Shown piece after piece: positions 9,835 through 19,389 of a stretch of 64,000 bases of DNA (positions within the stretch are counted from its first letter, which is position 1; each line of letters starts with the position of its first letter). A program made the position numbers and the translations under genes. Source of the DNA: an uncultured Phycisphaerales bacterium (lineage in GTDB: Bacteria > Planctomycetota > Phycisphaerae > Phycisphaerales > UBA1924); contig CALKJW010000028.1 of NCBI GenBank assembly GCA_937995595.1, positions 62,001-126,000 on the forward strand, in the 5' to 3' direction. The notes under the pieces were generated by a model. That model saw nothing but the letters and a program-made list of their open reading frames with translations, was not told the origin of the DNA and made no database searches.

Positions 9835-11004
9835 TCACGAAGTCGCCAGACCCCGGATCAGCCCGTGCGCGTTCTCGTTCTTCATCTCCAGCGTGTACTC
9901 GCCCACGAGCATCCCGCTCTCGGCGTCGCCGGTCGCCGCCAGCGGCTTGTAGTGGAAACTCCGCCCCGCCAGCGGCAGCACGCTCAGCCGCGAGGAGTCC
10001 AGCAGCAGCACGTGGTCAGCCGGCACCCAGCGCGACAGCACCACGCGGCAGACGCCGAAGTCCGACTCGTACACGCCCACCAGCGAGCGGTACGACTCGT
10101 CGTCCGGCCCGTACAGCCGCGACGTCGAGAGGAACTCGTTGATCCGCCGCTTCTGCAGGCCCGAGCACACGATCGTGTCCACCCGCCCGGCCGACTGCTC
10201 CCAGATCAGCCGCAGCGCGGCGTTGAGCACCGGCTCGTTCAGCGCCGTGCCCGCCCCGCCGCCCGCCGGCACGCCGCCCTGCCCAGGCACGAACTGGTTG
10301 GTCGCGATCGTCGGGATGATCCCGTTCATCGTGCGACGCACGCTCGCCGAGCCCTGCTGCGTCGCCGTCGGCGCCACCCCGTTGACCACGCAGTTCTCAA
10401 GGTCGCGCAGCAGTTCGCGCAGCCGCTCCTGCTTCTGGTAGTCCGCCTCGTCGGCCACGCCGTGCGCCCGCGCCGCCTGCATCGACCCCGACACCTCCAC
10501 CGACGCGGTGAAGATCTGCGTGTAGTTGCGCCGGCGGACCCGGTCGGTGAACCGCGCCGCCGGTCGGTCGTCGCCCTCCAGCGCGGCGTTGCCCAGGATC
10601 GTCAGTTTCATCCCGTTGCTCAGCGCGCCGCCCGGCGTGTTCCCGTAGCGCCGGACCACCGTCAGCACGTTCCCCGCGACCGCCGACACGAACATCACCT
10701 CGCGCAGCCCCTCGGGCCGCACCTGGTCGCCGACGCGGAAGCGCGAGCCGTTGGCCACCGTGACCGCCGTGGCGTCCGTCGCGTTGGGCGTGAACGTCGT
10801 CTGGTTCACGCTGTCGGTGTTGGGCAGCAGGGCGTCCTCGATCCACTCGTGCACCGTGCTCAGCGCCGCGTGCGACGCGTCGCCCAGCGCGTCCAGCAGC
10901 GGCGTCTCGAACGGGCTGACGATGCCCACCACGTCCGACACGTCCTCCATCAGTTCCGGCAGAGTCGCCCCCGCCCCGTACGTCGCCTTTCCCGTAAACG
11001 GCAT
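9835..11004 (-). CDS. Phage major capsid protein, SU10/DUF5309 type
   Basis: This 389-residue HK97-fold-type capsid subunit starts MPFTGKATYG at 11004, preceded by AAAGGTGAGC. Recognisable features of the SU10-like/DUF5309 capsid family appear in order. These are a VVGIVSPFETPLLDALGD segment near residue 25; ALSTVHEWIEDALL; a small beta domain (GSRFRVGDQVRP to GNVLTVVRRYG); RRNYTQIFTASVEVSGSM; a helix with ELLRDLENCVVNG; and near the end YESDFGVCRVVLSRWVP and GEYTLEMKNENAHGLIRGL. All of it is in frame, full length and in host-like codon use. The next gene upstream is a short proline-rich protein and then the portal, the usual tailed-phage order. No separate protease gene is visible. Confidence 0.88.
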   Translation of the reverse strand: MPFTGKATYGAGATLPELMEDVSDVVGIVSPFETPLLDALGDASHAALSTVHEWIEDALLPNTDSVNQTTFTPNATDATAVTVANGSRFRVGDQVRPEGLREVMFVSAVAGNVLTVVRRYGNTPGGALSNGMKLTILGNAALEGDDRPAARFTDRVRRRNYTQIFTASVEVSGSMQAARAHGVADEADYQKQERLRELLRDLENCVVNGVAPTATQQGSASVRRTMNGIIPTIATNQFVPGQGGVPAGGGAGTALNEPVLNAALRLIWEQSAGRVDTIVCSGLQKRRINEFLSTSRLYGPDDESYRSLVGVYESDFGVCRVVLSRWVPADHVLLLDSSRLSVLPLAGRSFHYKPLAATGDAESGMLVGEYTLEMKNENAHGLIRGLATS

Positions 11005-11050
11005 GTGCTCACCTTTCATAAGAAGACCGCCACTCCGAACCACCCGCCCG

Positions 11051-11104
11051 ACTCAGCACCCAGGACTCAGGACTGAGCACCCAGGACCCAGCACCCCGCA
11101 CCCA
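11051..11104. repeat. CAGCACCCAGGACTCAG-type simple repeat
   Basis: This is a short array of the units ACTCAGCACCCAGG, ACTCAGGACTGAG and CACCCAGGACCCAGC. It lies in the spacer between the capsid and the small proline-rich gene. The same vocabulary recurs at about 27817-27857 and 39519-39600. It is non-coding here and interrupts an otherwise tight phage operon. Confidence 0.8.
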
Positions 11105-11107
11105 GAC

Positions 11108-11437
11108 TCACGTCCCCTCCGCCTCCCGCCGCGCACGCAGGTACGCCATCACCGCGCGGCTGTCGCCCGTCCGCGCCGCCGCCGACGCGGCTTCGGCCCG
11201 CGCCCGCTCGGCTCGGTCGGCCCGCTCCCGCGCCGACATCGCCCCCGACGGCGCGGGCGGCGGGGGGGGCGGCGGTGGGAGGGGCGTTGCCCGCTGCGCC
11301 GCGACCACCCGCTCGCCGATCTGCCCGATCTCCGCACGAAGCCCGCGGAGTTCCTCCATCACCCGGTCGGCCAGCGCCCGCTCGCCCGCGCCCTGCGCCG
11401 CCGTGTGCGCTCCGCCGCCCGTCGTTCCGTCGCTCAT
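11108..11437 (-). CDS. Small proline-rich phage-block protein, possible scaffold
   Basis: This 109-residue protein has an AGGAGA site seven bases before ATG 11437. Residues about 15-50 and 65-105 are strongly helical and rich in Arg, Glu and Ala. They flank a run of eight consecutive prolines in the middle. It lies between portal and capsid, the place of the scaffolding protein in many tailed phages. A short coiled-coil protein with a flexible linker fits that role, but no family motif is visible. The proline run (C/G homopolymer-like DNA at 11258-11283) could be length-variable. Confidence 0.55.
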   Translation of the reverse strand: MSDGTTGGGAHTAAQGAGERALADRVMEELRGLRAEIGQIGERVVAAQRATPLPPPPPPPPAPSGAMSARERADRAERARAEAASAAARTGDSRAVMAYLRARREAEGT

Positions 11438-11507
11438 GTTCGTTCTCCTGTGTGTGCACAGCGCCCGGCGCGCGGGCCGTCCGCGGCCCGCGCCGTCCCG
11501 GGCAGAC

Positions 11508-13082
11508 CTACATCACCCCCGCGTCGCGCGACCCGTACCCCAGTTCCGCCAGCACCCGCTCGCGCGGCACGCCCAGCGCGACCTTCCGCTCCGCCGCCAG
11601 CAGCGCGTCCTGCTCGTCCCGCGGCAGCGGGTCCGGCCACGCCAGGCTCAGCGCCCGGTCGCGCGGCTCGGTCCGCAGGATCCCCGCACGGTCCAGCGCG
11701 ACCAGCGCGAGGCGCGACGCCTCGACGATCCCGCGCCCGTACGTCTGCCGCTTCCGCGCAGTCCGGCTCAGCAGGCCCATCAGCGTCACGCGCAGCGCGT
11801 TGGCGCTCGACAGGTTCCCGATCCGCGCACGCACCACCCCCGCCGCCAGCGGCGGCACGCCGCTCGCCTTGTCCAGCGCCTCGCGGACCTCCTGCACGTG
11901 CGCCGCTTCCGACGGGCTCGCCGCGTCGCCCCCGAGCGACTCGATCGTCGCCTCCGGGTTGTCGGTCACGATCACCTGCCCCGGCCCCACGCGCACGCCC
12001 TCGACGCCCTCCAGGCCCTTGGCCAGCAGCATCTTGAACGACTGGAACGTCACGCGCGAGGCGCGGTCCGACAGCCGCGTGTTCAACTCGTCCTGCAGCG
12101 GGATCAGCGGCTCGACCTCGCCCAGCCCCTCCCACGCCAGCGGCTGCGCGATGTTCTGGATGTGCGCCACCGGCGGGGCCTCGCGCCGATCGCCCGCCGA
12201 CACCAGCGCGGGCCCGTCGAGCACCAGCCGCCAACCGGCCCGACGGCCCGCCTCGTCGCGCTCGAAGACGCGCCGGCGCGACCCGCTGAGCACCTCCAGA
12301 ACCAGCGTGCCGCGCGCGCCGGCGCGCGGCACGCCCTCCTCCGCCAGCCCGAGCCACCGACGCAGCAGCGACGGCGGTGCGCCCAGCGGCCCGCGCCCCG
12401 CCGCCGGCGACGTTCCCGCCTCCTCCTCGCGCCGCGTCACGATCAGGTACGCGTCCAGCACGCGATAGTCCGACGCCGACACCACCGGCACGCCGCGACG
12501 CGGCTCCACCGCCTCGATGCGAACCGCGCCCGCCGCGGCGTGCGCGACCGCCTCGTCGTCCGGTTCGTCCGCCGCCCCGCCCGCGCTCTCAACGCCACGC
12601 ACCACCAGGTCCACGTGCCCGTACACGTGCGCCATCAGCGCGGCGTCGTTGAGCAGCGCGGCCCCGCCCGAGGACTCCCACACCGCGTCCAGCGCACGCT
12701 CGATCCGCCGCGCCAGCGCGCCGTCCCGCGCGCCCGACACCACCCGCACCGGCCGCCCCAGCAGGAAGTCGATCATCGTGTGCACGCGCCACGCGATGTC
12801 GTTCTCGATCACGATCTCCTTGCGCTTCCACGCCCGGTCGTCCCACGGCCCAGCCGGGCCGACCAGCCGCGACGGCAGCCCCCGCTCCTGCGCCAGCCGG
12901 TACCCGCGCGACGACGGGTCGCGCTGTGTCTCGCGTCCGCCCAAGGCGCGCATCGGGTTGCGGTAGTAGTCCCACAGCGCGTCCAGCCGCGGCACAACGC
13001 TCCGCTCGTGCCGATCCAGCAGGTCCTCGACCCGCTCCCACGTGAGTCCCGCTTCCGCACACGGCGCATCGGTCTGGTGCAT
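11508..13082 (-). CDS. Phage portal protein, SPP1 gp6-like
   Basis: This 524-residue portal subunit belongs to the dodecameric ring through which DNA enters the head. The N-terminus WERVEDLLDRHERSVVPRL and YYRN, then WKRKEIVIENDIAWRVHTM and FLLGRPVRV, follow the SPP1-type portal pattern of an early amphipathic helix followed by N...R....D...G.P. The middle part (VPVVSASDYRVLDAYLI) is the wing/clip region. The segment HIQNIAQPLAWEGLGEVEPL leads to LQDELNTRLSDRASRVTFQ, the stem/core helices typical of the family. The start at 13082 has GGAGCGGAG upstream. Length is normal and uninterrupted. It is the first gene of the virion block, with a gene-free 711-base region before it. Confidence 0.85.
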   Translation of the reverse strand: MHQTDAPCAEAGLTWERVEDLLDRHERSVVPRLDALWDYYRNPMRALGGRETQRDPSSRGYRLAQERGLPSRLVGPAGPWDDRAWKRKEIVIENDIAWRVHTMIDFLLGRPVRVVSGARDGALARRIERALDAVWESSGGAALLNDAALMAHVYGHVDLVVRGVESAGGAADEPDDEAVAHAAAGAVRIEAVEPRRGVPVVSASDYRVLDAYLIVTRREEEAGTSPAAGRGPLGAPPSLLRRWLGLAEEGVPRAGARGTLVLEVLSGSRRRVFERDEAGRRAGWRLVLDGPALVSAGDRREAPPVAHIQNIAQPLAWEGLGEVEPLIPLQDELNTRLSDRASRVTFQSFKMLLAKGLEGVEGVRVGPGQVIVTDNPEATIESLGGDAASPSEAAHVQEVREALDKASGVPPLAAGVVRARIGNLSSANALRVTLMGLLSRTARKRQTYGRGIVEASRLALVALDRAGILRTEPRDRALSLAWPDPLPRDEQDALLAAERKVALGVPRERVLAELGYGSRDAGVM

Positions 13083-13793: not shown

Positions 13794-14936
13794 ATGGCCA
13801 GCAAGGATCAACCCATTGTCGTCTGCGGCGGCGGCGGTTTCATCGGCGGGCATCTGGTCGGCGAGTTCCGACGCCTGGGCTTCAGGAACATCCGCAGCAT
13901 CGACATCAAGCCGCTCGACGAGTGGTACCAGGTCTTCCCCGACGTCAAGAACATGCGCCTGGACCTCAAGGACCTGGCCAACTGCCGCAAGGCCATGAAG
14001 GGCGCCGAGGGCGCGCAGGTCTTCCAACTCGCGGCCGACATGGGCGGCATGGGCTTTATCGAGAACAACAAGGCCCTGTGCATGCTCAGCGTGCTGACCA
14101 ACACGCACATGCTGATGGCGGCGCAGGAAACGGGCGTCCAGCGGTTCTTCTACAGTTCCTCCGCCTGCGTCTACAACGCCAGCAAGCAGAAGGACCCCAA
14201 CGTCACCGCGCTCAAGGAGGAGGACGCCTACCCCGCCATGCCCGAGGACGGCTACGGCTGGGAGAAACTCTTCTCCGAGCGCATGTGCCGCCACTTCCGC
14301 GAGGACTTCGGCGTGCCGACGCGCGTCGCCCGCTTCCACAACGTCTACGGCCCGCACGGCACGTGGGAGGGCGGACGCGAGAAGGCCCCCGCCGCCATCT
14401 GCCGCAAGGTCATCCACGCGCTGCACACCGGCAACCACCAGATCGAGATCTGGGGCGACGGCACGCAGACCCGCTCGTTCATGTACATCACCGACTGCAC
14501 CAAGGGCGTCCGGATGCTGACCGATTCGGACTTCACCCAGCCGATCAACCTCGGCTCGAGCGAACTGGTCAGCATCAACGAACTGGTCTCCATCGCCGAG
14601 GACATCGCGGGCATCAAACTCCAGCGCACCTACAAACTCGACGCGCCCAAGGGCGTCGCCGGGCGCAACTCCGACAACACGCTCATCCGGCAGGTCTTCA
14701 ACTGGGAGCCCGACACGCGCCTGCGCGACGGCATGGAGAAGACCTACCGCTGGATCTACGACGAGTACATGGCCAAGTACGGCCCGGAGGCCCGCCCCGC
14801 GCGCCCGCGTCCCGCGCCCGCCGCCCAGCCCAAGAAGCCCGCCGCGGCACGCGCCAAGAAGAAGCCCGCCCGCGTCGCCACCCGCGCCGCCGGCAAGAAG
14901 AAGAAGCCCGCCCCGCGCGCCCGCGCCCGCCGCTGA
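13794..14936 (+). CDS. GDP-mannose 3,5-epimerase-like SDR with a basic Lys/Ala tail
   Basis: This 380-residue NAD-dependent epimerase/dehydratase has the glycine motif GGGGFIGGHL near residue 12. QLAADMGGMGFIENN closely matches the hallmark segment of GDP-mannose 3,5-epimerases. The catalytic triad region is SSSACVY with the following YGWEK. These enzymes interconvert GDP-mannose, GDP-L-galactose and GDP-L-gulose. After about residue 332 the protein ends in roughly 50 residues made almost only of Ala, Pro, Lys and Arg (AARAKKKPARVATR, then KKKKPAPRAR). This resembles a histone-H1-like tail and is not part of the enzyme fold. The gene opens a four-gene surface-sugar run on the plus strand. Confidence 0.85.
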   Translation: MASKDQPIVVCGGGGFIGGHLVGEFRRLGFRNIRSIDIKPLDEWYQVFPDVKNMRLDLKDLANCRKAMKGAEGAQVFQLAADMGGMGFIENNKALCMLSVLTNTHMLMAAQETGVQRFFYSSSACVYNASKQKDPNVTALKEEDAYPAMPEDGYGWEKLFSERMCRHFREDFGVPTRVARFHNVYGPHGTWEGGREKAPAAICRKVIHALHTGNHQIEIWGDGTQTRSFMYITDCTKGVRMLTDSDFTQPINLGSSELVSINELVSIAEDIAGIKLQRTYKLDAPKGVAGRNSDNTLIRQVFNWEPDTRLRDGMEKTYRWIYDEYMAKYGPEARPARPRPAPAAQPKKPAAARAKKKPARVATRAAGKKKKPAPRARARR

Positions 14937-15017: not shown

Positions 15018-17000
15018 ATGAGCACGGACGCACTCCTCAACCAGTTCGCCGCCGAGATCCGCACCGCGGTCACCGTGCGCCTCGTCGAGCAGCGCCTCCT
15101 CCGGCTCTTCTCCGAGGGCAAACTCTTCGGCACCGTGCACACCTGCATCGGCCAGGAGTTCGTCGGCGTCAGCGTCGCGCGACGCCTCACCGACGCCGAC
15201 ACCATCTTCTCCAACCACCGCGGGCACGGCCACTTCCTCGCCTACCGACGAAACATCAAGGGCCTGATCGGCGAGATCATGGGCAAGAGCGTCGGCGTCT
15301 GCGGCGGACGCGGCGGCAGCCAGCACGTCCAGCAGGACGGCTTCTACTCCAACGGCATCCAGGGCGGCATCGTGCCCGTCACAACCGGAATGGCCCTGGC
15401 CCACAAGATGCAGGGCACCGGCGGCATCGCCGTCGTCTACGTCGGCGACGGCACCCTCGGACAGGGCGCCCTCTACGAGAGCATGAACATCGCCAGCAAG
15501 TGGGACCTGCCGGTGCTGTTCGTCTGCGAGAACAACCTGTACGCCCAGAGCACCTGCCAGACCCAGACGCTGGCCGGCGACATCTGCGCCCGCGCCGCGG
15601 CGTTCGGCATCGAGACCGCACACAACGACACCTGGGACTGGCCCGCGCTCTTCGCCGCCATGGAGCGGTCGATCGCCCACGTCCGCGCCACCTCGCGACC
15701 GATCTTCCACCGCGTCGACACCTACCGCCTGATGGCGCACTCCAAGGGCGACGACAACCGCCCCGAGAGCGACGTGCAGCCCTACCGCGACCGCGACCCG
15801 ATCAACATCCTGATGCGCCAGCGCGAGAACGACCCCGCCTGGCGCGCCATGCTCACCGACATCGAGCGCGAGATCGAGGACGCCGTCCGCGAGGCCGACG
15901 AGGCGCCCTGGGGCGACGTCGAGCGCGACATCGCCGCGGCGGCCGCCGCGCCCCGCGCCCTCCGATGGAAGCGGGCCCAGTTCGAGCGCGAGAAGTGCGT
16001 CGCCTCGGTGCGCAAGGGCCTCGAAGAGGCGCTCGACACCCGCGACAACGTCGTGCTCATCGGCGAGGACATCGAGTCGCCCTACGGCGGCGCGTTCAAG
16101 TGCACCCAGGGCCTCAGCGCCAGGCACCCGGCGAGGGTCCGCAACACGCCCATCAGCGAACTGGCCATCGTCGGAATCGGCAACGGCCTGGCGCTCCGCG
16201 GCATGATCCCCGTCGTCGAGATCATGTTCGGCGACTTCCTCACCCTCGCGGCCGACCAGTGGATCAACCACGCCGCGAAGTTCCGGTTCATGTACGACGG
16301 CAAGGTCCGCGTGCCGCTCATCGTGCGCACCCCCATGGGCGGCAAGCGCGGCTACGCCGCGACCCACAGCCAGTCGTTGGAGAAGCACTTCGTCGGCGTG
16401 CCCGACACGCGCGTGCTGTGCCTGAACCACCGCGTCTCGCCCGCGCTGCTCTACCGCGCGCTGTTCCAGACCATCGACCGCCCCACGCTCGTCATCGAGA
16501 ACAAACTCCTCTACGCCCAGAACGTCAGCAGCGAGCCCCCCGCGGGATGGGACCTGCTCCACACCGACGAGCCCTTCCCGACCGCCTGGCTCCGCGCCGG
16601 CGGCGGCGCGGCGGCCGAGGTGACCATCGTCGCCCTCGGCGGCGCGGCCATCGACGCCGAGGAAGCCGCGCGCCGGCTCTTCGAGGAGGACGAGATCGCC
16701 GCCGACGTGTTCATGCCGACCTGCCTGTATCCTTTCGACGTGAGCGTGCTGGCCGACAGCCTGTCGCGGACGCGGCGCCTCGTCGTCGTCGAGGAGGGGC
16801 AGGGCTTCGTGTCGCCCTCGGGAGAGATCGTCGCACAGGCCGCCGAACGCTTCGGCGCCAACGGGCTGAGCTGCCGGCGCGTGACCGCCGCGCCCGTCGC
16901 GATCCCCGCCGCGCGCCCGCTGGAGGCCCGCTGCCTCCCGCGGCCCGAGGACGTCCTGCACAAGTGCCTGGAGGTGGCGCGTGAACTCGTCCACCACTGA
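15018..17000 (+). CDS. Fused 2-oxoacid dehydrogenase E1 alpha-beta (TPP enzyme)
   Basis: This 660-residue protein joins E1 alpha (about 1-300) to E1 beta (about 325-655). The alpha half keeps HTCIGQE, the TPP motif GDGTLGQGALYE ending in ENN (about residues 142-172), and the loop RLMAHSKGDD. The beta half has IGEDIESPYGGAF, NTPISELAIVG, EIMFGDFL and THSQSLE. Together they decarboxylate a 2-oxoacid and reductively acylate a lipoyl group. Pyruvate and branched-chain substrates cannot be told apart here. The gene overlaps the next one by 20 bases, so the lipoyl protein is surely its partner. No E3 gene or ordinary E2 is nearby, and the setting is polysaccharide metabolism rather than central metabolism. 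Confidence 0.88.
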   Translation: MSTDALLNQFAAEIRTAVTVRLVEQRLLRLFSEGKLFGTVHTCIGQEFVGVSVARRLTDADTIFSNHRGHGHFLAYRRNIKGLIGEIMGKSVGVCGGRGGSQHVQQDGFYSNGIQGGIVPVTTGMALAHKMQGTGGIAVVYVGDGTLGQGALYESMNIASKWDLPVLFVCENNLYAQSTCQTQTLAGDICARAAAFGIETAHNDTWDWPALFAAMERSIAHVRATSRPIFHRVDTYRLMAHSKGDDNRPESDVQPYRDRDPINILMRQRENDPAWRAMLTDIEREIEDAVREADEAPWGDVERDIAAAAAAPRALRWKRAQFEREKCVASVRKGLEEALDTRDNVVLIGEDIESPYGGAFKCTQGLSARHPARVRNTPISELAIVGIGNGLALRGMIPVVEIMFGDFLTLAADQWINHAAKFRFMYDGKVRVPLIVRTPMGGKRGYAATHSQSLEKHFVGVPDTRVLCLNHRVSPALLYRALFQTIDRPTLVIENKLLYAQNVSSEPPAGWDLLHTDEPFPTAWLRAGGGAAAEVTIVALGGAAIDAEEAARRLFEEDEIAADVFMPTCLYPFDVSVLADSLSRTRRLVVVEEGQGFVSPSGEIVAQAAERFGANGLSCRRVTAAPVAIPAARPLEARCLPRPEDVLHKCLEVARELVHH

Positions 17001-18213
17001 GATCGTGTGCGAGGTGCGCGTCCCGCGCGAGACGGTGAACGACGACGTCGTCACCGTGCAGGCCTGGCAGCGCGCCCACGGCGACCCGGTACGCAAGGGC
17101 GAGTGCGTCGTCCACATCGAGACCTCCAAGGCCGTGCTCGAGGTCGAGGCCGAGGGCGACGGCTTCCTCGAAGTGCTGCACGCCGCGGGCGCCGAGGTGC
17201 CCGTCGGCGAGTTGATCGGCCGCGTGCTCACCTGCCCGCCCCCCGCGCTGCGCCTGCACAAGGACGAGCCGTCGGCCCACGCCGAACCGGCGCGACCCGC
17301 GCGCATCCCCATCGGCAACGGCGCGCCCGCGCGGTCGAGCAACCGCCTGCGCGACCGGACGGAGGCGAAGGGGGACGAGCCCGAGAGCCGCCACCCCGCG
17401 CCGACGCCGGAACCGGCCCACCCGGAGGCGACCTACCCCGACGCCGCGGTGCAGACCGCGATCTCGAAGAAGGCCCAGCGACTGATCGACGAGCACGCCA
17501 TCGACCCCGCGGTCTTCGCGCACCTGCCGCTGGTGCGCGAGGCCGACGTGATCCGCTACCTGGAGCAGCGCGCCGCCGAGCGCCTGCGCCGCGAGCCCGC
17601 CCCGCCCTCTCCCGCCGCCGCGGCGGGCGAACAGGCCCGGCGCGACGCCGCGGCCAGCGCAGGCCCGCGCGTCGACAGCGCCTACCCCGGCCCCAGGACG
17701 CGCGGCCTGCTCGGCGACGCCGCGGCCAGCGCACGCGACCGCGGCAACCGCTCCATCCTCTGGCTCGCCTGGAACTACTTCTGGCGCAACTGGCTGCTGG
17801 GCAACCTGGCACGATGGGCGCCGCGCGGCGTCATCCTGCCCATCCACCGCCTGCGCGGCGTGAAGATGGGCGCCGACGTGTTCATCGACCCCACCGCCAT
17901 CATCGAGACCGCCTTCCCCGAGAACATCACCATCGGCAACGACGTGCGCATCACCGCCGGGTGCGTCATCATGTCGCACATCAAGGCCCCGCACTACCTG
18001 CGCGAGACCGGCCTCGTGCCCGTCGTCCTCAGGCCCGTCGTGCTCGAGGACCACTGTTTCATCGGCGTCAACAGCGTCATCATGCCCGGCGTGACGGTCG
18101 GCAAGGCCAGCGTCGTCGCCAGCGGCAGCGTCGTCGTCAGCAACGTCCCGCCCTACACCATGGTGCAGGGCAACCCCGCCAGAGTCATCAGGCAGTTCCC
18201 GCGTCCGGAGTAG
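16981..18213 (+). CDS. Lipoyl + E3-binding domain fused to a hexapeptide acyltransferase
   Basis: This 410-residue protein starts with GTG at 16981, inside the end of the E1 gene (20-base overlap, translational coupling). Domains in order: a lipoyl domain (about 5-85) with modified-lysine motif ETSKA at Lys50; a Pro/Ala linker; a peripheral-subunit/E3-binding domain (about 158-196, ISKKAQRLIDEHAIDP); a second linker; and a left-handed beta-helix acyltransferase (about 290-405). The last keeps GADVFIDPTAIIE, MSHIKAP with the likely catalytic His333, and a GNPARVI end. An ordinary E2 would have a chloramphenicol-acetyltransferase-like domain in this place. Inference: the acyl group made by E1 on Lys50-lipoyl is passed to a sugar hydroxyl or amine by the beta-helix domain. 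Confidence 0.85.
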   Translation: MNSSTTEIVCEVRVPRETVNDDVVTVQAWQRAHGDPVRKGECVVHIETSKAVLEVEAEGDGFLEVLHAAGAEVPVGELIGRVLTCPPPALRLHKDEPSAHAEPARPARIPIGNGAPARSSNRLRDRTEAKGDEPESRHPAPTPEPAHPEATYPDAAVQTAISKKAQRLIDEHAIDPAVFAHLPLVREADVIRYLEQRAAERLRREPAPPSPAAAAGEQARRDAAASAGPRVDSAYPGPRTRGLLGDAAASARDRGNRSILWLAWNYFWRNWLLGNLARWAPRGVILPIHRLRGVKMGADVFIDPTAIIETAFPENITIGNDVRITAGCVIMSHIKAPHYLRETGLVPVVLRPVVLEDHCFIGVNSVIMPGVTVGKASVVASGSVVVSNVPPYTMVQGNPARVIRQFPRPE

Positions 18214-18408: not shown

Positions 18409-19389
18409 ATGATGCAGCCCGAACCGCTCAACGCCTTCTGCGTCGACCTCGAGGAGTGGTGGCACATCTGCGCCGCGGACACGCCCTACAACGACCCCGC
18501 CACGTGGGACAGCGCGCCGCCCTTTGTCGAGAAGGACACCGAGACGCTCTTGCGCCTGCTCGACGAGACCCGCGCACGCGGCACCTTCCTCACCGTCGGC
18601 TGGGTCGCCGAGAAGTACCCGCGGCTCATCAGGCGACTGGCCGACGCCGGCCACGAGATCGGCTGCCACACCTACTTCCACCGCGTGGTGTACGAGCAGT
18701 CGCCCGAGGAGTTCGACGCCGACATCGCCCGATGCCTCAAGGTCCTGCGCGAGGTGAGCGGGCAACCGGTCAACAGTTTCCGCGCGCCCGGCTTCAGCAT
18801 GAAGCGCGAGGCGTTCGCGTACGCGTACCCGATCCTGCGCAGGCACGGGATCGAGGTCGACGTGAGCATCGTGCCCGCGGCCCGCGACCACGGCGGCGTC
18901 GAGGGCTTCACGCGTGACCCGTTCCTGCTCCGCATCCCCGGCGGCCTGCCTCTGGGTCCCGCGCAGCCGACCAGCATGAAGTGCTGGCCCGTGAGCGTGA
19001 TGGACTTCCTCGGCCGCACCACGCCCTTCTCGGGCGGGGGCTACCTGCGCCTGTTCCCGCTCCCCATCGTGCGCGCCGGCTACCGGCAGAACCACCGCGC
19101 CGGCCGCCCGGGCATGTCGTACATCCACCCGCGCGAGATCGACCCCGACCAGCCGCGCCTCAAACTCCCGTGGAAGAAGTACTTCAAGTACTACGTCGGC
19201 ATCAGGGGGTGCGAGAGCAAACTCCGCAGCGTGCTCAACACCTACCGCTTCACCACCATCGCCGAGGTCATCGCCAGCGTGCGCCGATGGCCCGAGTACG
19301 AACTGGTCGGCGGCGACATCCGGCCCCTTGCGCCCGGTGCCGTCGCCCAGCCTGCCCCGCCGCCGCTCGCCGCGGGCCGCGCGGCGTGA
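18409..19389 (+). CDS. Polysaccharide deacetylase, NodB/DUF3473 type
   Basis: About 326 residues long, starting at ATG 18409 (a second ATG follows at 18412). The NodB fold begins NAFCVDLEEWW, whose Asp is the general base. The metal-binding His pair lies in GCHTYFHR, and FRAPGFS is motif 3. The C-terminal extension with SYIHPREIDPDQPR is typical of the DUF3473 deacetylases found in exopolysaccharide/exosortase loci. It would remove acetyl groups from N-acetyl sugars. The spacer 18214-18408 before it is filled with degenerate GCAGAG/CACGGAG-type repeats, and any 5' extension of the gene would run into these, so the internal start is preferred. Confidence 0.88.
   Translation: MMQPEPLNAFCVDLEEWWHICAADTPYNDPATWDSAPPFVEKDTETLLRLLDETRARGTFLTVGWVAEKYPRLIRRLADAGHEIGCHTYFHRVVYEQSPEEFDADIARCLKVLREVSGQPVNSFRAPGFSMKREAFAYAYPILRRHGIEVDVSIVPAARDHGGVEGFTRDPFLLRIPGGLPLGPAQPTSMKCWPVSVMDFLGRTTPFSGGGYLRLFPLPIVRAGYRQNHRAGRPGMSYIHPREIDPDQPRLKLPWKKYFKYYVGIRGCESKLRSVLNTYRFTTIAEVIASVRRWPEYELVGGDIRPLAPGAVAQPAPPPLAAGRAA

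Follow-up and report, generated by a model that had tools for sequence, protein, structure and literature searches.

A fused E1-type gene overlapping a gene for a lipoyl protein with a left-handed beta-helix acyltransferase domain in planctomycetes suggests an acyl relay to sugar

The DNA analysed here, called the window, is a stretch of 64,000 nucleotides of contig CALKJW010000028.1 (assembly GCA_937995595.1) from an uncultured Phycisphaerales bacterium; coordinates are positions of the whole window unless another locus is named. It contains two forward-strand genes that overlap by 20 bases. The upstream gene encodes an E1 enzyme dependent on thiamine diphosphate (ThDP) with the alpha and beta parts in a single chain, for which Pfam reports E1_dh (1.3e-47), Transket_pyr (3.8e-26), and Transketolase_C (2.6e-14). 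The downstream gene encodes a protein in which a lipoyl domain is followed by a helical domain resembling a peripheral subunit-binding domain (PSBD) and by an acyltransferase domain of the left-handed beta-helix (LbH) fold. The catalytic domain of ordinary E2 proteins (2-oxoacid_dh, PF00198) is absent from this protein and from its homologues in the Pfam scan.

In the lipoyl-LbH protein, Pfam assigns residues 13–80 to Biotin_lipoyl (7e-9) and residues 352–385 to Hexapep_2 and Hexapep (3e-11 and 1e-10, respectively). Lys50 lies within the motif IETSKAV, and this lysine with the preceding E-T-S, as well as His333 of the LbH domain, is invariant in eight aligned homologues and also present in a ninth (L055). 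A full-length AlphaFold2 (AF2) model gives the lipoyl domain a predicted local distance difference test score (pLDDT) of ∼90, with Foldseek matches to lipoyl domains, and places a compact helical domain, also at pLDDT ∼90, at about residues 161–204. The LbH was poor in the full-length model and was therefore modelled alone with WcaF-type relatives added, yielding a pLDDT of 81.7, a predicted template modelling score of 0.75, and a domain of the maltose/galactoside acetyltransferase (MAT/GAT) kind with a helical cap. Structure alignment with VIA-align gives Z values of 16.8 to 3ect and 16.5 to the GAT 1kru, and the predicted fold is that of sugar and amino-sugar acyltransferases. His333 aligns with the histidine of the THPLN segment in the galactoside acetyltransferase of S. 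aureus (3ftt). These findings bear out much of a preliminary description of the locus, which had listed a fused E1 gene overlapping its neighbour, a lipoyl domain with Lys50, an LbH acyltransferase with His333, and no ordinary E2 catalytic domain. As for the E3-binding domain of that description, the helical domain is modelled with high confidence and aligns with the PSBDs of the genome's own E2s, but Pfam E3_binding is reported neither in the 410-residue protein nor, even at E 0.1, in the homologues, and its GTGxxGR loop has three residues fewer than that of ordinary PSBDs, for which reasons the domain is labelled PSBD-like here.

Features of the gene pair and its neighbours, with window coordinates
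Feature	Coordinates	Strand	Basis
NAD-dependent sugar-nucleotide epimerase (GDP-fucose synthase/GalE-like short-chain dehydrogenase/reductase)	13794..14936	+	Pfam Epimerase 5e-36
Fused E1 alpha-beta ThDP enzyme, 660 residues, AHSKGDD subfamily	15018..17000	+	Pfam
Altered E1 active-site loop R-L-M-A-H-S-K-G-D-D-N-R, residues 237–248	15726..15761	+	Alignment
Lipoyl, PSBD-like, LbH acyltransferase gene, 410 residues, GTG start	16981..18213	+	
Lipoyl domain, residues ∼9–86, N-terminal VPRETVNDD motif	17005..17238	+	PF00364, AF2, Foldseek
Lys50 codon, predicted lipoylation site (ETSKA)	17128..17130	+	Lysine in 9/9 compared homologues
PSBD-like helical domain, residues ∼158–204, short loop	17452..17592	+	AF2 pLDDT ∼90, E2 alignment
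MAT/GAT/NodL-type LbH acyltransferase domain with helical cap	17698..18210	+	AF2, structure alignment
His333 codon, candidate catalytic base	17977..17979	+	Invariant in alignment; aligned to 3ftt His
NodB/XrtA-type polysaccharide deacetylase	18409..19389	+	Pfam Polysacc_deac_1 4e-21

Residues His41, His241, and His450 of the window E1 and its ThDP motif (GDG143–145/NN172–173) align with human E1 at alpha and beta positions. The active-site loop, in contrast, is RLMAHSKGDDNR and does not follow the YRxxGHSxSDP pattern of ordinary E1s. Among 72,556 plasmid records, the E1 matches RenH best (renieramycin cluster, MK748462.1), at 45% identity over 97% of the length; RenH is likewise fused, has the same AHSKGDD loop, and is encoded by a gene overlapping that of the lipoyl-E2 protein RenI. 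In a tree of 27 E1s, the window E1, RenH, and other E1s with HSKGDD-type loops form one clade on a long branch with support of 100/100, and the LbH-coupled E1s form a single subclade within it (100/99). This clade sets the window E1 closer to RenH and farther from the ordinary E1s that act on 2-oxoacids. Comparison E1s from L059–L061, at 41–43% identity, have the ordinary GHSxSD-type loop. A Streptomyces plasmid locus (L085, 5998–9540), with genes for E1 alpha, E1 beta, E2, and acyl carrier protein in a row, was considered as a reference of the Qnc type and rejected, since its E1 has the loop AHSMYDPDR and groups with ordinary E1s.

HSKGDD-type E1s occur in other settings. In an Armatimonadota locus (L037, 8004–12107) the E1 gene lies beside a lipoyl-E2 gene and a third gene encoding a phosphopantetheinyl transferase domain with an N-terminus resembling an acyl carrier protein. 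In a planctomycete locus (L053, 10184–13467) it is followed by a gene for a lipoyl-PSBD-E2 catalytic protein and then by one for a carrier protein-sulfotransferase-thioesterase; these last two genes lie in different overlapping frames and are perhaps one fusion with a frameshift. In L054 it adjoins a gene (10073–10513, reverse strand) for a stand-alone lipoyl and PSBD-like protein of 146 residues having no acyltransferase domain of its own.

The lipoyl domains of the window type share the motif VPxxxxND with RenI and with the E2s of L037 and L053, whereas ordinary E2s differ, as expected if the LbH took the place of an E2 catalytic domain. When a tree is built from lipoyl domains only, the ordinary ones stand apart from the window/RenI class (99/94), and little is resolved inside that class. 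The simplest history would start from a RenI-like E2 in which an LbH came to stand where the catalytic domain had been. Such an exchange would be structurally reasonable, because E2 catalytic domains and LbH acyltransferases are both trimers with active sites between subunits that take a long thiol arm. Lipoyl-domain matches on plasmids of Phaeobacter, Tritonibacter, and Pacificitalea were at first read as free-standing lipoyl carriers encoded on a polysaccharide plasmid; these parallels were rejected because a distinct E2 gene follows two genes further along, in a context of transport and catabolism.

Six genomes (G001/L030, G031/L031, G578/L032, G706/L033, G023/L034, and G608/L055) have a full-length relative of the lipoyl-LbH protein, G606 has a split match at a contig end, and scanning 84,980 species genomes with a pattern yielded two more loci, one in Pirellulales (L035) and one in another planctomycete (L036). 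The layout is thus present in ten planctomycete genomes including that of the window, with two orders named. Nine of these ten loci have enough flanking DNA for gene order to be compared, and in all nine the same fused E1 lies directly upstream of the lipoyl-LbH gene and a NodB-type deacetylase lies downstream; an epimerase is present in seven, and a WcaI-type glycosyltransferase is in the cluster in seven (in L031 it is L023_1053-2360). In both genomes of the window's genus the WcaI-type glycosyltransferase is encoded elsewhere, at 78–79% identity. The smallest set, in L036, consists of a glycosyltransferase (GT4), the E1, the lipoyl-LbH protein, and the deacetylase between housekeeping genes. 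Identity to the other genomes is 56–85% for the lipoyl-LbH protein and 60–92% for E1. Each part of the window gene pair, taken separately, is under purifying selection: relative to L030, the ratio of non-synonymous to synonymous substitution rates (dN/dS) is ∼0.10 for the lipoyl domain, 0.11 for the PSBD-like domain, 0.09 for the LbH, and 0.09 for E1, and the linker varies most. The layout is therefore real and conserved, and not an artefact. The protein occurs in 7 of the 163 genomes of the window's family and in 7 of 301 sampled genomes of the order; given the count for the family, it is rare and patchy. PADLOC gave no match.

The host genome, a planctomycete assembly of 3.1 Mb in 55 contigs, encodes LipA and lipoamide dehydrogenase (E3). 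It also has three ordinary E2 genes, all away from the window pair, one of them beside a SucA-type 2-oxoglutarate dehydrogenase E1, one beside a pyruvate dehydrogenase (PDH) E1 beta gene, and one unlinked, as well as two further E1 alpha genes elsewhere. Its E1s other than that of the window pair number three. Each of the three E2s can be matched to another E1, presumptively so for the unlinked one, and hence no E2 is left over that the window E1 evidently serves.

On balance, the conserved layout, the loss of the E2 catalytic domain, and the clade of the E1 favour an acyl relay that would run from a donor through E1 and an acyl-lipoyl group to the LbH and then to a sugar, for modification of a surface glycan. 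In this relay, of which the lipoylation, the donor, the direct lipoyl-to-sugar transfer, and the acceptor are the parts that we infer, the fused E1 would take an acyl unit from a small metabolite, a ketose phosphate being the likeliest and a 2-oxoacid less likely, and pass it, with oxidation at the lipoyl group, to lipoyl-Lys50 of the overlapping partner. The lipoyl arm would then swing to offer the thioester at the groove between subunits of the LbH trimer, where His333 would activate a hydroxyl or amine of the sugar and the acyl group would go directly to the sugar with no free acyl-coenzyme A (acyl-CoA). The PSBD-like domain may dock E1, the common E3 of the cell, or both, and this E3 would re-oxidise the dihydrolipoyl arm.

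Several known systems resemble the window pair in part. QncN/QncL/QncM of quinocarcin, SclQ1-4 of scleric acid, and NapB/NapD of naphthyridinomycin also combine an E1-like ThDP enzyme with a lipoyl protein and serve an acceptor other than CoA, but they retain the catalytic domain of E2, and their acceptor is an acyl carrier protein, whereas the window pair has the fold of an LbH sugar acyltransferase instead. RenI has a 2-oxoacid_dh catalytic domain and a non-ribosomal peptide synthetase (NRPS) context, and the window partner of E1 has neither. The pyruvate and branched-chain 2-oxoacid dehydrogenase complexes share with the window pair the E1 fold, the catalytic histidines, and the lipoyl domain, and have a PSBD where the window protein has its PSBD-like domain; the window pair differs from them in its lack of an E2 catalytic domain, its loop, and its sugar context. 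The MAT/GAT/NodL and WcaF enzymes have the same LbH fold with a helical cap but are stand-alone and use CoA, whereas the window LbH is fused to a lipoyl domain, and we know of no other member of this family that is lipoyl-fused. AviB1/AviB2 and Pau11/Pau12 are, like the window E1, E1 alpha/beta homologues in sugar pathways; carbon-carbon ligation has been proposed for them and no lipoyl acyltransferase partner described (PMC4425429), whereas the window E1 has such a partner.

The preliminary description took the donor to be a 2-oxoacid, with pyruvate and branched-chain acids as examples, which is probably incorrect. The E1 joins the RenH clade apart from ordinary E1s and its loop is altered, and the nearest characterised function, that of QncN/QncL, takes a ketose phosphate to glycolyl. 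QncN/QncL/QncM are described as directing the biosynthesis and attachment of a C2-glycolicacyl unit (PMC6335953), and the related SclQ1-4 are proposed to convert a ketose phosphate such as xylulose-5-phosphate (PMC6335953). Another source classes the Qnc system among PDH-like proteins that prime carrier proteins rather than CoA (PMC5384830). By this analogy, conversion of a ketose phosphate to glycolyl is ranked as the most likely route, ahead of a 2-oxoacid, without certainty.

As to the acceptor, the conserved deacetylase suggests, by analogy, de-N-acetylation followed by re-acylation of a sugar. In Nod factor synthesis, NodB and NodA carry out such a sequence. The product is likely to be an amino sugar whose N-acetyl group has been removed and replaced, because the NodB-type deacetylase and the WcaI-type glycosyltransferase are conserved. 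The reaction is perhaps N-glycolylation of the amino sugar freed by the deacetylase; O-acylation is also possible, since the nearest LbH relatives are mostly O-acetyltransferases. No carrier-protein gene was noticed among the called genes around the LbH loci, where small open reading frames were only partly scanned with profiles. The full combination, namely CoA-independent N- or O-glycolylation of a glycan in which an E1 acting on ketose phosphate charges the lipoyl group with glycolyl and an LbH replacing the E2 domain passes it to the amino sugar freed by the deacetylase, is put forward tentatively.

Some observations weigh against the relay to sugar or against its ketose phosphate form. 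The branching order of the remaining RenH-clade members is weakly supported and unresolved in the tree of 27 E1s; the link from RenH to QncN would be one of pathway type; and a ketose phosphate is a putative donor for RenH itself. In addition, the PSBD-like domain lacks the loop through which classical PSBDs contact E3 and E1, the placement of His333 moves by two residues in other alignments (e.g., to 3ect), and the LbH retains the C-terminal GNPAKVIK motif usual in CoA-using relatives, which leaves room for use of CoA.

An identical relay with a 2-oxoacid donor (pyruvate, 2-oxobutyrate, or a branched-chain acid), which would yield acetyl, propionyl, or branched acyl sugars, is a possible alternative that we consider less probable. 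It agrees with the top NCBIfam model of the E1, pyruvate dehydrogenase E1 alpha (219.8 bits, under the cut-off of 393.85), with human PDH E1 as the closest chain in the Protein Data Bank, and with the proposal that the pepteridine E1/E2-NRPS system uses alpha-keto acids (PMC5384830). However, both the clade and the loop of the E1 are unlike those of all ordinary decarboxylating E1s compared, and a relay restricted to acetyl would add little where acetyl-CoA is free. Use of free acyl-CoA by the LbH, with E1 and the lipoyl domain feeding acyl-CoA by way of another E2 or merely tethering E1, is judged unlikely: MAT/GAT-type LbH enzymes do use acetyl-CoA, the aligned structures contain CoA, and the genome has three E2 genes, yet every one of these E2s is matchable to another E1, and the fusion of lipoyl, PSBD-like, and LbH domains is kept in all ten genomes with invariable E1 linkage where gene order can be compared.

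It is much less likely still that the E1 is a carboligase adding a two-carbon branch to a keto-sugar, as proposed for AviB1/AviB2 and Pau11/Pau12, with the LbH acylating the new hydroxyl. The occurrence of E1 alpha/beta homologues in branched-sugar pathways (PMC4425429) and the epimerase adjoining E1 would fit this scheme, but the Avi and Pau pairs are described without a lipoyl partner, whereas in the window pair purifying selection has kept both the lipoyl domain and its lysine conserved. Chance fusion or an assembly artefact without joint function, for which only the rarity of the layout in the order could be cited, has next to no probability and is already refuted by the conservation of the layout, which recurs in independent assemblies at 56–92% identity with the same gene order and dN/dS of ∼0.1.

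In the textbook view, a lipoyl arm works through an E2 catalytic domain and delivers to CoA or, in a few antibiotic pathways, to carrier proteins. In the window pair that domain seems to have given way to an unrelated fold, with the result that the arm would deliver straight to a sugar. A correct relay to sugar would mean that glycans can be modified from a new kind of acyl donor and that bacteria have a way to glycolylate their sugars, and it would be a clean case of one domain being exchanged for another within central metabolic machinery. Consisting of two proteins and E3, the system is small and can be rebuilt in vitro. The novelty claimed in the preliminary description holds for the substitution of an LbH for the catalytic domain of E2 within an E1-lipoyl relay, but it does not extend to a new class of chemistry, since lipoyl relays to non-CoA carrier proteins have already been described or proposed. 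A literature search, with most subscription papers outside it, returned no description of a lipoyl domain combined with a left-handed beta-helix domain and, by title or abstract, none of one combined with a hexapeptide domain. Two points of follow-up to that description turned out in its favour, as the search for the domain layout gave ten genomes counting that of the window, with an E1 neighbour in all nine where gene order can be compared, and the search for a separate E2 paired with the same E1 returned only E2s matchable to other E1s. Its surface-sugar cluster is thin in the window, which has the epimerase upstream, the deacetylase downstream, and phage head genes beyond, but is clear in related loci, which carry glycosyltransferases, a flippase-like protein, an NDP-sugar dehydrogenase, and sulfate activation genes.

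The two flanking sugar genes score under the cut-offs of two further models, the epimerase matching NCBIfam GDPFucSynFcl at 6e-30 and the deacetylase matching TIGR03006 at 236.6 bits (cut-off 276.2). Sulfate activation genes (adenosine 5'-phosphosulfate kinase or sulfate adenylyltransferase, and bisphosphate nucleotidase) lie near the cassette in L032, L033, L023, and L034, hinting at a sulfated glycan. In the Pirellulales locus (L035, 11038–12695), a second polysaccharide deacetylase gene and a formyltransferase gene lie between the lipoyl-LbH gene and the conserved deacetylase. In the sister species an extra Methyltransf_24 gene (L022, 7033–7977), missing from the window, separates the epimerase gene from the E1 gene. 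Just upstream of the cassette, the window carries genes for a phage major head protein and portal (9835–13082, reverse strand), and the same genes occupy the same place in the sister species (L022, 1699–4923, reverse strand) at 79–92% identity, which suggests an old inherited phage remnant or a gene-transfer-like particle.

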